The notes beneath the pieces are model-generated. The model searched no databases and was not told the origin of the DNA. It saw only the letters and a list, made by a program, of their open reading frames with translations. Below are positions 13,321 through 33,601 of a stretch of DNA of 34,174 bases, piece after piece. Every line of letters begins with the position of its first letter. Position 1 is the first letter of the stretch. The position numbers were made by a program, and so were the translations under genes. Source of the stretch: Marinilabiliales bacterium (GTDB lineage: Bacteria; Bacteroidota; Bacteroidia; Bacteroidales; F082); NCBI GenBank assembly GCA_002869465.1, contig PKSW01000475.1:1-34174 (forward strand), in the 5' to 3' direction.

Positions 13321-13432
13321 TTTCATTTATCATTTCCCCGTAAACGAGGTTAGGTATTGGCACCTTTTCCGTTGCAGGAGGGTTGCCAGGGCTTCATTGA
13401 GCCTAATCTCTCCACCCTTCTTTATAAATCAA
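13321..13432 (-). ncRNA. SAM-I riboswitch (S-box leader) of metH
   Basis: The minus strand carries the S-box core in order. The 5' P1 strand (ATTTAT) is followed by AAGAAGGGTGGAGAGATT, then the P2/P3 region AGGCTCAATGAAGCCCTGGCAACC with the invariant AUGAA and GGCAACC, then AAGGTGCCAATACCT and a P4 stem (CCTCG ... CGGGG). The 3' P1 strand ATAAAT pairs with the first. The aptamer ends about 66 nt before the metH ATG. No classical terminator follows, so control may act on translation. Binding of S-adenosylmethionine should lower metH-metF expression when SAM is plentiful. Confidence 0.93.
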
Positions 13433-30101: not shown

Positions 30102-31040
30102 ATGATTCAAAAATATATTACTTTTTTTCTCGGATGCCTTTTTTTTATATCGACATCGTGTCAGCGACAGCAGGAAGTGATCAAGGTATTTCATGCCGGA
30201 AGCCTGTCGGTGCCATTGCATGCGATTGCTGAAGCTTACGAAAATTTGCATCCTGGTGTTAAAGTCCAACTGGAAGGTGCCGGCAGTTTAACCTGTATCA
30301 GAAAAATTACGGAGTTGCATAAAGCCTGTGATGTGCTTGCCGTGGCTGATTATGCGTTGATCGACCAGTTGATGATCCCTGATTATACGAACTTTAATAT
30401 TTTGTTTGCCGGTAATAAAATGGCGATTGGATACGAACCCGGATCAAAGTGGGGTAATGAAATAAGTGAAACCAATTGGCATGAAATCCTTTTAAGAGAT
30501 GATGTACACTTTGGCCGCTCGAATCCCAATCATGATCCTTCAGGCTACAGAACAGAGATTGTGATGGGACTGGCAGAAAAAAAATTACAAATACATGGTT
30601 TACAGCAGGGGTTACTGAATAAAGATCAGAAATTTATTCGTCCGAAAGGTACCGAGTTGCTTCCCTTATTGGAAACAGGAACCATTGATTTTATATTTCA
30701 TTACAGCTCGGTTTTACAACAGCACAACTTGTCTGTCCTGTGGCTACCCGACAGCATCAACCTGAGTAATCCTGCCCTTGATGATTGGTATGCTTCGGTT
30801 TGTACCGAAGTGGATGGAACAAGCCGTGAACAACGCATTACCAAGTGTGGCGAAGCAATGGTGTATGGTATCTGTCTTCCGGATAATGGGAATAATCCCA
30901 GTGGAGCAACCCAATTTCTACAGTTTATGCTGACAAACGGTAGGGATATTTTGGAAAACCATGGACAACCTACTATTCAACCTGTTTTATCGACAAAATC
31001 AATAGAAATTCCTGCATGGTATTCATCTATTATAAATTAA
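30102..31040 (+). CDS. Molybdate/tungstate ABC transporter substrate-binding lipoprotein, WtpA-like
   Basis: Periplasmic oxyanion-binding protein of 312 residues with a lipoprotein signal (LGCLFFISTSC, Cys20). The ModA/WtpA class is indicated by KVFHAGSLSVPLHAI near 30, the LEGAGSLTCIRKITEL segment, HFGRSNPNHDPSGYRTEIVM near 145, RPKGTELLPLLETGTIDFIF and the C-terminal HGQPTIQPVL. The NPNxDPxGYR motif is the WtpA hallmark and favours the archaeal/tungstate-type branch over E. coli ModA. Molybdate or tungstate selectivity cannot be decided from sequence. It is the first gene of the four-gene operon, four bases before the next gene. Confidence 0.92.
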   Translation: MIQKYITFFLGCLFFISTSCQRQQEVIKVFHAGSLSVPLHAIAEAYENLHPGVKVQLEGAGSLTCIRKITELHKACDVLAVADYALIDQLMIPDYTNFNILFAGNKMAIGYEPGSKWGNEISETNWHEILLRDDVHFGRSNPNHDPSGYRTEIVMGLAEKKLQIHGLQQGLLNKDQKFIRPKGTELLPLLETGTIDFIFHYSSVLQQHNLSVLWLPDSINLSNPALDDWYASVCTEVDGTSREQRITKCGEAMVYGICLPDNGNNPSGATQFLQFMLTNGRDILENHGQPTIQPVLSTKSIEIPAWYSSIIN

Positions 31041-31044
31041 CCCA

Positions 31045-32112
31045 ATGAAAAAAATTCTTGTATCAAATTTAGTCATCATCACGATCTTTTTCCTTTTTGG
31101 AAAATGTACAACCATATCAAATGAAAAAAAGCCAACTGTATTATTACCCGCGGTTGACACAAATGACGCTACCAATGATTTTTATGATAACGAAGCAACA
31201 CATTTACTGCCTCTGGAAAAAATTATTGTGGATGGTGAAACAAAAGGCCAGATAGAAATCGATTTGACCAGTTTGCCATTGCATTCGGTGATTGTAAAAG
31301 AAACAGCATGGACTGCTGACAGTAACAAATTTATAGGCGCCTACCGATATGACGGGCCATCACTTTATGACATTCTAAATACTGTCCCATTAATAAAAAA
31401 GAATGCCGAACAATTTAACCCGATTATTGATGCCTTTGTTGAGATCAGTAATGATGCAGGAGAAAAAGTAATATTCAGCTGGGGAGAAATTTTTTATCCG
31501 ATTCATCGTCATGAGATCATTATTGGAACCCGGGTGATGCAAATTGTACCCAGCAAGACCAAAGAATATTGGCCTTTACCTGAAGAACCCCGGTTGATCG
31601 CAGCGGCTGACTTGCTCACGGAAAGAAATATTAGCAACCCAAGCCGAATTACTATAAAATCTCTTGATCAGTATTTTGAAGTGAACCGTGAAATAAACCC
31701 CATGTTTTCTGAAAGCATGGGCATCTATGATAATGATGAGCAGGAAATATCCCGTATTTCGGATATGCCTGAAGATAATGAAATCAGTTATCCCAATATA
31801 TTTTATGGCCGGGGTCGTGGTATTCATGCCGTTACACCTTTTAACGGAGTCCTGCTGAAAAACCAACTCGCATCCTTTTTCCCACTGAGTCGCGAAGCAT
31901 TAAAAACCGGAATGTTCACAATTTCTTCAGTGGACGGTTACCGTGCAGCATTCACATACAGTGAAGTTATGAATAGGAATGACCAGTCGGAAGTGTTGTT
32001 AATTGACCAGGGTGAAACTGACGGCGGGCGTTTCATTATTTATCCTTCGGCAGACTTTTTTTCTGACAGGGCCGTAAAATCCATTAATGGAATCTGGTAT
32101 CATGAGCTCTAA
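31045..32112 (+). CDS. Exported protein with two degenerate molybdopterin-oxidoreductase-fold repeats, in the Mo/W transporter operon
   Basis: 355 residues with an N-terminal hydrophobic export segment. The lipobox candidate LFGKC (Cys21) has Lys at -1, which is non-canonical. The rest shows an internal duplication that resembles the sulfite-oxidase/YedY Moco-binding fold (PF00174). Repeat 1 has YDGPSLYDIL (102-111), VEISNDAGEKVIFSWGEIF (132-150) and EPRLIAAADLLTERNISNP (181-199). Repeat 2 has FNGVLLKNQL (266-275), FTISSVDGYRAAFTYSEVM (291-309) and GRFIIYPSADFFSDRAVKSI (328-347). Apart from Cys21 there is no Cys, so the thiolate that binds Mo in true enzymes is absent. Gaps of four and three bases to the binding protein and permease genes make it an integral operon member. 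It may be a binding or cofactor-handling partner; the function is not known. Confidence 0.7.
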   Translation: MKKILVSNLVIITIFFLFGKCTTISNEKKPTVLLPAVDTNDATNDFYDNEATHLLPLEKIIVDGETKGQIEIDLTSLPLHSVIVKETAWTADSNKFIGAYRYDGPSLYDILNTVPLIKKNAEQFNPIIDAFVEISNDAGEKVIFSWGEIFYPIHRHEIIIGTRVMQIVPSKTKEYWPLPEEPRLIAAADLLTERNISNPSRITIKSLDQYFEVNREINPMFSESMGIYDNDEQEISRISDMPEDNEISYPNIFYGRGRGIHAVTPFNGVLLKNQLASFFPLSREALKTGMFTISSVDGYRAAFTYSEVMNRNDQSEVLLIDQGETDGGRFIIYPSADFFSDRAVKSINGIWYHEL

Positions 32113-32115
32113 AAA

Positions 32116-32910
32116 ATGATACAGGGTAACCGAATACATATCTTTTCTGTATTTATGATGCTGGCCGGGGCGTTGGTGTTGCTTTTTGTGATCGCGCCAC
32201 TGGCAGGCATGTTTTTACACACAAGCGGAAGCAGTATTGCTGAAGCGCTGCAGGATACCGAAGTAACACACAGCATACTGCTTACCCTGGGAAGTGCCAT
32301 GGCGGCGACACTAATCTTTAGCCTGGGTATTATTCCTCTGGCCTGGCTCATGGCACGCCATACATTTCGCGGAAAACGCATTATCCAGGGAATTATCGAC
32401 TTACCTGTGGTTATTCCGCATAGTGCAGCAGGCATTGCATTGCTCAGTGTTGTGTCAGAAAACGCCATCTTTGGAAAAGCAGCGGCAGGATTGGGATTAA
32501 GCTTTATAGGGACGATTGGAGGTGTTATTATTGCCATGGCATTTGTGAGCCTGCCGTTTCTTTTTAATGCAGCACGCGATAGTTTCGAGTCCATTGACCG
32601 TCGCCTCGAGTATGCAGCTATGAATCTGGGGGCTTCACCGGCAAAAACATTCTTCACCATTTCTTTACCGCTGGCTAAAAATGGCATTATCTCTGGAATG
32701 ATCATGATGTTTGCACGTGGTATGAGCGAATTTGGAGCCATTGTTATCATTGCCTATTACCCGATGGTAACCCCGGTAATGATCTACGACCGTTTTGCTT
32801 CTTTCGGACTGGAAGCTTCCCGACCTATTGCATTACTTTTTATTTGTATAGCATTGATTGTATTTATCATTATTCGCCTTTTTACACGCCGACGCTATGC
32901 TACACGTTAA
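32116..32910 (+). CDS. Molybdate/tungstate ABC transporter permease (ModB/WtpB-like)
   Basis: Inner-membrane permease, 264 residues, about six TM helices, binding-protein-dependent transport family. The cytoplasmic coupling loop (EAA motif) is visible as RRLEYAAMNLGASPAKTFFTISLPL near 167-191, followed by the typical GIISGMIMMFARGMSEFGA. The PVVIPHSAAGIALL segment before it is characteristic of ModB/WtpB/CysT permeases. It starts three bases after the previous stop, and its last codons overlap the start of the ATPase gene, which indicates translational coupling. Homodimeric assembly is expected. Sulfate or thiosulfate permeases are the nearest alternative, but the WtpA-like partner supports Mo/W. 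Confidence 0.92.
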   Translation: MIQGNRIHIFSVFMMLAGALVLLFVIAPLAGMFLHTSGSSIAEALQDTEVTHSILLTLGSAMAATLIFSLGIIPLAWLMARHTFRGKRIIQGIIDLPVVIPHSAAGIALLSVVSENAIFGKAAAGLGLSFIGTIGGVIIAMAFVSLPFLFNAARDSFESIDRRLEYAAMNLGASPAKTFFTISLPLAKNGIISGMIMMFARGMSEFGAIVIIAYYPMVTPVMIYDRFASFGLEASRPIALLFICIALIVFIIIRLFTRRRYATR

Positions 32911-33601
32911 AGATGTAACCATATACGCGGGAACATTTGCAGTGAACTCCGCAACATTCCGTATTAATAAGGGAGAATATTATTTTCTTCTTGGGGAGAG
33001 CGGATCCGGCAAATCACTGCTGTTGGAAGCCATTAGTGGCACCAGGGATATACAAAAAGGAAGCATAATGGTAGCCGGTGAAGATATTACCCATCAGCCG
33101 TTGAATAAGCGAAATGTTGGTATTGTTTTTCAGAACCTTGCATTATTTCCACATAAAAAAGTATTTAAAAACATATCATTTTCACTGAACTGCCGAAAAA
33201 TCAGCAAGAAAGAAATTGATTTTGAAGTACATCAAATGGCGGAAAAACTGGGTATTTCAAAGCTACTTCAACGCTATCCGGAAACTTTAAGCGGGGGAGA
33301 ACACCAGCGGGTGGCATTGGCTCGCACCCTTATTATGAAGCCTGCCGTATTGCTGCTTGACGAACCCCTGTCGTCGCTTGATATTTTGTTGAAAGAAGAA
33401 ATGGTAACCTTGCTGAAGGATATCCATCAGCAAGGTCAAACTATTTTACACGTAACACATGATTATCATGAAGTTGCCCAACTGGCTGATAGAATTTCCA
33501 TCATTGAGAACGGGCAGATTTTGCAAACAGGAACCCGTCTGGAAATTTCAAAAGCACCATGTAATCGGCTGGCGAACCGAATTAGCAACCCTTTCTTATA
33601 A
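32897..33601 (+). CDS. Molybdate/tungstate ABC transporter ATPase (ModC/WtpC-like)
   Basis: Energising subunit, 234 residues from the ATG at 32897 (MLHVKDVTIY). The computed start at 32858 is a TTG deep inside the permease gene and adds a non-homologous MYLSLFAFLHADA, so I reject it. All ABC motifs are present: Walker A GESGSGKS, Q-loop VFQNLALFPH, signature LSGGEHQRVALART, Walker B VLLLDEPLSSLD and H-loop HVTHDYHE. There is no C-terminal TOBE/MOP domain, so the trans-inhibition by molybdate seen in some ModC proteins is not expected. It overlaps the permease gene by 14 bases. It is the last gene of the operon. Confidence 0.93.
   Translation: MLHVKDVTIYAGTFAVNSATFRINKGEYYFLLGESGSGKSLLLEAISGTRDIQKGSIMVAGEDITHQPLNKRNVGIVFQNLALFPHKKVFKNISFSLNCRKISKKEIDFEVHQMAEKLGISKLLQRYPETLSGGEHQRVALARTLIMKPAVLLLDEPLSSLDILLKEEMVTLLKDIHQQGQTILHVTHDYHEVAQLADRISIIENGQILQTGTRLEISKAPCNRLANRISNPFL

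Follow-up and report, generated by a model that had tools for sequence, protein, structure and literature searches.

ModABC, WtpABC and TupABC, the importers of molybdenum and tungsten (Mo/W) oxyanions, start in the periplasm. To our knowledge, the step before it, by which scarce Mo/W enters through the outer membrane of Gram-negative bacteria, is largely unexamined, and we know of no described Mod, Wtp or Tup system in which another exported protein is encoded between wtpA and wtpB. BtuB–BtuG and other Bacteroidota systems built on a TonB-dependent receptor (TBDR) combine a surface lipoprotein carrying an export signal with the receptor and an ABC importer (PMC10404256, PMC5080379). The sulfite-oxidase fold is itself already known in a cofactor-less, signalling role: PruR of Proteobacteria is a periplasmic protein of this fold without the Moco cysteine, which binds reduced pterins and controls DcpA (PMC13259868). 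Here we describe a tandem sulfite-oxidase-fold lipoprotein, hereafter referred to as X, that is encoded within a Wtp-type importer operon of a Marinilabiliales bacterium, and in which metal acquisition appears to have taken over an old fold of molybdenum enzymes. A first-pass annotation knew of no such subunit in described Mod, Wtp or Tup systems, and our search of the open-access literature likewise found no description of one, nor any account linking Mo/W to TonB or to molybdophores, or placing cofactor-less sulfite-oxidase proteins in molybdenum transport.

The window, which is the whole stretch of DNA analysed (34,174 nucleotides), contains the operon wtpA–X–wtpB–wtpC (Table 1). The coordinates agree with the first-pass reading that X lies between a WtpA-like gene and a permease gene with gaps of only four and three bases. 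The closest solved relatives of the window WtpA are 3k6u, 3cfz and 2onk, and its WtpC covers positions 1–225 of the 347-residue tungstate_WtpC model, the C-terminal part being absent. In comparison with the related locus L001, dN/dS is 0.066 for X, 0.112 for WtpA and 0.041 for WtpB; X is thus under strong purifying selection. WtpA has an unusual feature in this clade. D153 and E218 of AF_0094, which we take to be the carboxylate ligands of the oxyanion (tungstate), correspond to D145 and G183 in the window protein; the glycine is shared by the window, L001, L002 and L003, and the position is Glu in nearly all other WtpA proteins in which the motif was found.

Table 1. Positions of the operon genes and of the parts of X in the window.
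Feature	Coordinates	Strand	Basis
wtpA, Mo/W oxyanion-binding lipoprotein	30102..31040	+	TIGR03730, 278.4 bits (equivalog cut-off 242.75)
X, predicted tandem cofactor-less sulfite-oxidase-fold lipoprotein, 355 aa	31045..32112	+	AF2/Foldseek, hhalign
X, signal peptide and lipobox ending at Cys21	31045..31107	+	sequence
X, first predicted sulfite-oxidase-fold domain, residues 43–212	31171..31680	+	domain-only AF2 model, Foldseek
X, second predicted sulfite-oxidase-fold domain, residues 213–355	31681..32109	+	hhalign probability 98.2 to single-domain relatives
wtpB, permease	32116..32910	+	best NCBIfam match tungstate_WtpB, 279.7 bits (below 340 cut-off)
wtpC, ATPase	32897..33601	+	best NCBIfam match tungstate_WtpC, 261 bits (below 440 cut-off)

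Sequence searches with X returned no match in Pfam (even at an E-value of 10), in NCBIfam or in the PDB (phmmer and profile searches); none of 11 X homologs matched PF00174, and X does not reach a Pfam gathering score. Structure prediction was more informative. An AlphaFold2 (AF2) model of X built from the 11 homologs (pLDDT 80.8, pTM 0.79) had sulfite oxidases, SorA and MsrP (also known as YedY) as its top PDB matches in Foldseek, with E-values of 1.6e-5 to 2e-3. When the N-terminal domain was modelled alone (pLDDT 82.1), all 20 of its 20 PDB matches at E < 0.01 were sulfite-oxidase-fold proteins, including PruR (7kp2; TM-score 0.63 by target length), and both models matched 6y0k, 2blf, 1ogp and 1xdy with a probability of 1.00. 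The TM-scores of the N-terminal domain are moderate (0.49–0.59 by query length), values to be expected when relatives are distant and alignments short, and a viral fold library gave no meaningful match to X. This structural check, which could have spoken against the fold assigned by the first-pass annotation, agrees with it: X is predicted to have the sulfite-oxidase fold both in the whole protein and in its N-terminal half.

Profile–profile comparison with hhalign, using 100 column shuffles as a control, bears out the suspected internal duplication. Alignments of the N-terminal and C-terminal halves matched each other with a score of 34.9 (probability 71, E 3.8e-5) against a shuffle maximum of 21.9. 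Compared with a family of single-domain relatives described below, the N-terminal half scored 67.9 (probability 96.9) and the C-terminal half 87.1 (probability 98.2); shuffles gave at most 32.5 and 18.4, respectively, and never reached the real scores. Judged from these profiles, the internal repeat is real and both halves are homologous to the single-domain, PF00174-like family. Equivalent pieces of copy 1 and copy 2 are DGPSLYDIL and NGVLLKNQL, VEISNDAGEKVIFSWGEIF and FTISSVDGYRAAFTYSEVM, and PRLIAAADLLTER and GRFIIYPSADFFSDR. The two-copy segment pattern that had been read by eye therefore corresponds to a detectable duplication, but its last block is two residues longer in copy 2 than the pattern allows.

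The cysteine that ligates molybdenum in the enzymes of this fold is missing from X. As first noted, the only Cys of the window protein, Cys21, belongs to the lipobox of its export signal, and the absence of the usual Moco thiolate extends to the family: across 77 varied X proteins, with identities as low as 29%, no cysteine besides that of the lipobox is conserved, the next most frequent cysteine positions being occupied in 24 and 17 of them. The lipobox itself was recognised by the pattern used in 36 of the 77 open reading frames. The conserved K85 and Y254 lie near the positions equivalent to the Moco cysteine, a placement that is approximate and derived from a pattern; profile comparison of the X halves with Escherichia coli MsrP alone was too weak to place the lost cysteine exactly. 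The strictly conserved positions of X, which include K85, D109, D129, E148, D189, R194, Y254, D297, E307, R311, D313, D341 and R342, are for the most part occupied by Gly, Asp, Glu, Arg or Lys; this composition suggests that both domains have a polar binding surface. R300 is conserved as well, and so are two tryptophans, W146 and W176, which lie away from the position of the Moco cysteine.

X differs from both described groups that it resembles. It shares with PF00174 proteins, MsrP, SorA and the sulfite oxidases a predicted fold and, via the single-domain relatives, homology of both halves, but it has no Cys ligand, falls below Pfam detection, is an apparent Sec lipoprotein, is tandem and resides in a transporter operon. 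With PruR it shares the predicted fold, the missing Moco cysteine, the expected periplasmic side and a length of about 170 residues per domain. PruR, however, is a single domain of this size in which Trp replaces Cys, and it is accompanied by DcpA or a DTB kinase, whereas X is a tandem lipoprotein with Wtp or TBDR partners and with its conserved tryptophans elsewhere. Among the labelled neighbours of X at the loci examined (Wtp, TBDR, ModE and Moe/Moa), no DcpA or DTB sensor was recognised.

We surveyed 393 genomes of the order, most of them MAGs, and found X in 74 (in one as a 37-residue fragment only) and WtpA in 121. WtpA is present in 71 of the 74 X-bearing genomes compared with 121 of 393 overall (Fisher 5.6e-41, for counts that are phylogenetically non-independent). 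The expectation that X would occur in related transporter operons thus holds in that the gene recurs across the order, but not throughout, as in some wtp operons X is missing and its position is either empty or taken by a porin-like gene. Outside the order, tandem X occurs in three Bacteroidota genomes in the arrangement Wtp–X–MoeA–MoaA (L015–L017, L127–L129), and in a Fibrobacterota MAG (L006) it follows a TBDR with no Wtp transporter nearby. The latter X nests inside the Bacteroidota X tree, and horizontal transfer or a binning error is therefore possible. A lipoprotein at the same locus, taken by eye for a further sulfite-oxidase domain, was unsupported on checking. Two other loci hold damaged genes, one with an in-frame stop (L007:4479-5540) and one broken with its middle missing (L013:6001-6592), each being either a decaying copy or a MAG sequence error.

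We labelled the neighbours of X within 6 kb at 72 loci, using BLAST or HMM similarity to a small number of query sequences. Wtp genes lie within this distance at 40 loci. A TBDR does so at 36, and at 30 loci it immediately precedes X, which is as much tied to these receptors as to Wtp. ModE is found at 17, a characteristic lipoprotein of about 300 residues at 28, a T9SS-sorted-type protein at 15 and CcsA/ResB-like genes at 5, while MoeA and MoaA occur in part of the set. At 60 of the 72 loci X is accompanied by one or more of Wtp, TBDR, ModE and Moe/Moa, and the 12 with no Mo/W or TBDR neighbour include some on short contigs. Typical gene orders are wtpA–X–wtpBC, wtpA–TBDR–X–wtpBC and lipoprotein–(T9SS protein)–TBDR–X, the last with or without an adjoining transporter. 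The fuller cassette (L105, L110, L115, L101, L102, L071 and others) consists of a surface-export lipoprotein of about 300 residues, usually a T9SS-sorted-type protein of about 290 residues (assigned from a sorting domain above the cut-off in one representative), a TBDR and X, with CcsA-like and ResB-like genes in some loci. At L012 the ModE-like protein scores 81 bits against the ModE repressor domain, just under the cut-off of 98.5. The TBDRs beside X are closest, below the cut-off, to haemin/haemoglobin receptor models, a match that reveals little of what they bind. Mapped onto the X tree, the Wtp label changes at least 14 times and the TBDR label at least 19 times, which indicates that both linkages have been broken or lost and rebuilt repeatedly.

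Two observations bear on where X would act. An acid-rich segment after the lipobox cysteine is described as the surface-export signal of Bacteroidota lipoproteins (PMC5080379). Acidic residues at positions +2 to +6 average 2.26 in the lipoproteins that precede the TBDR (for example, CKKDE and CSKDEDE), compared with 0.61 in X and 0.55 in WtpA, and the window X has no acidic surface-export signal after its lipobox cysteine; X is thus expected on the periplasmic side. Furthermore, among 20 sampled wtp operons without X (one from a genome with an X fragment elsewhere), the slot after wtpA holds a porin-like protein of about 420 residues, similar in appearance throughout, in 7 (L134, L137, L138, L139, L142, L144 and L147), and all three of those scanned match the outer-membrane barrel family Alginate_exp (PF13372) above the cut-off. 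That the same slot can hold either an outer-membrane barrel or X suggests that the step of Mo/W uptake concerned lies at the outer membrane or in the periplasm.

A scan of the phylum recovered the single-domain relatives, proteins of 156–207 residues; against PF00174, four of them score above the gathering cut-off (24.4–35.4 bits against a cut-off of 24). Judged by pattern, 17 of 37 keep a cysteine at the place matching the Moco ligand of MsrP (Cys146 of the precursor), and others have VTNHxGE there. These proteins often, though not always (18 of 37), adjoin ModE, TBDR or ModBC genes. In L191–L196 and other single-domain loci the order is ModE, TBDR and then a Cys-bearing single-domain protein, an arrangement for which we found no description, and in L206, a class-level genome, T9SS, lipoprotein and TBDR genes are followed by a Cys-bearing single-domain relative and ModE in place of X. 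Together, these arrangements suggest related functions for the single-domain and the tandem proteins. PruR was not recovered when a profile built from the single-domain relatives was searched against PDB sequences. One further open reading frame of 414 residues, in L218, joins a single-domain relative to a second domain of about 220 residues.

The first-pass annotation had suggested a binding component, a sensor or a chaperone as possible roles of X. We propose that X is a periplasmic, non-enzymatic and cofactor-free accessory of Mo/W acquisition, both of its domains having lost the molybdenum-ligating cysteine, which would handle a ligand and link outer-membrane uptake to WtpABC; we put the probability of this joint reading at roughly one half (about 0.48). 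It builds on a predicted fold, on the observed duplication, the lost thiol and the purifying selection, and on the repeated occurrence of X beside genes for WtpABC, TonB-dependent receptors and ModE and, in part of the lineages, for Moco synthesis; from these we infer that X binds a ligand and passes it to WtpA. A Mo/W species, either the free oxyanion or a chelate, would enter through a dedicated TBDR, or by diffusion where none is linked; X would bind it in the periplasm and hand the Mo/W over to WtpA, after which WtpBC would import it. Where the cassette is fuller, the surface lipoprotein and often a T9SS-secreted protein would probably capture the ligand outside. The association with a TBDR and with secreted and surface partners favours a chelate, or metal at very low concentrations, as the ligand. 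Molybdate is small enough for general porins, and the need for a receptor is therefore an assumption of scarcity or chelation; that many wtp operons manage without X counts against its role in uptake, as do the 12 loci with no Mo/W or TBDR neighbour and the lack of a TBDR in the window operon. More tentatively, and as a possibility well short of even, Bacteroidota may have a dedicated TonB-dependent Mo/W route, for the oxyanion or a metallophore chelate, composed of the surface lipoprotein, the T9SS protein, the TBDR, a carrier derived from the duplicated thiolate-less fold and WtpABC. Unlike in systems of the BtuB–BtuG type, the ligand would be Mo/W and the cassette would include a periplasmic-side component of a different fold, X.

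The main rival, which we consider doubtful, holds that X is a PruR-like sensor of a reduced pterin or Moco fragment that passes on the status of the cofactor, either to a partner in the membrane or to the transporter. A periplasmic protein of this fold without the Moco cysteine does bind pterins (PMC13259868), PruR is among the structural matches of the N-terminal domain, and some X loci carry MoeA and MoaA; yet X has two domains where PruR has one, it lacks the Trp that replaces the cysteine there, its linkage is to transport genes, and no DcpA-like or kinase-like partner was recognised among its labelled neighbours at the loci examined. Release of the metal from a chelate by redox or ligand exchange is an unlikely role, although candidate electron donors exist: a NapH-like ferredoxin-type membrane protein is encoded between the TBDR and X in L012 (4574-5974) and L068, and a CcsA/ResB-like pair follows X in L101, L105, L110 and L115 and lies near it in L112. 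Such partners are rare, however, at 5 of 72 loci for CcsA/ResB and 1 of 72 for NapH, and X has no conserved cysteine or recognisable cofactor motif.

Two further alternatives keep the cofactor itself in play. X might capture intact Moco or molybdopterin imported by the TBDR, the loss of the thiolate making binding reversible. In favour of such salvage, enzymes related by this fold bind molybdopterin, and TBDRs carry ligands larger than oxyanions. The co-encoded WtpABC, however, is an oxyanion transporter that would not carry Moco, and MoaA and MoeA co-occur in some operons, where Moco is therefore made de novo, so that we regard salvage as decidedly improbable. That X is an oxidoreductase which retains Moco in the absence of a protein thiolate is very improbable. 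The sulfite-oxidase fold and the many strictly conserved charged residues (for example, K85, D109, E148, D297, E307, R311, D313, D341 and R342) would fit such an enzyme; exported Moco enzymes normally use Tat, however, and the missing thiolate together with the apparent Sec lipoprotein signal makes a catalytic role unlikely.

If the acquisition role is correct, a catalytic cofactor fold has been turned into a transport or sensing part, the second such reuse beside PruR, and short Bacteroidota proteins annotated as 'molybdopterin-dependent oxidoreductase' may not be enzymes. A conserved family joining an ABC importer to TBDRs would also make the outer-membrane step of Mo/W uptake testable.

In the window genome, which is 93% complete, two enzymes of the DMSO-reductase family are encoded, one of them with PhsA as its closest match (below the cut-off). 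There is no match to PF00174, a combination that counts in favour of the acquisition role. The genome also has no match to an AOR-type tungsten enzyme, and a tungsten-only role of X is therefore less likely there. The window operon itself is without a TBDR, and no close relative of the one receptor used as a query was found in the genome. Given these enzymes and no such receptor relative, X in the window clade may support a molybdoenzyme and may do so with no receptor encoded beside it.

Minor observations concern genes and RNA elements nearby. Proteins of about 250 residues with the motif GIDDTDN or GLDDTD, resembling TiaS (a weak Pfam match to TiaS_TCKD only), are encoded beside wtpA at L143:8623-9363 and L114:1426-2205, one of these loci being X-less. 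The window contains no Moco riboswitch; a SAM riboswitch (RF00162, 75.9 bits) is located at positions 13324-13430 on the minus strand.
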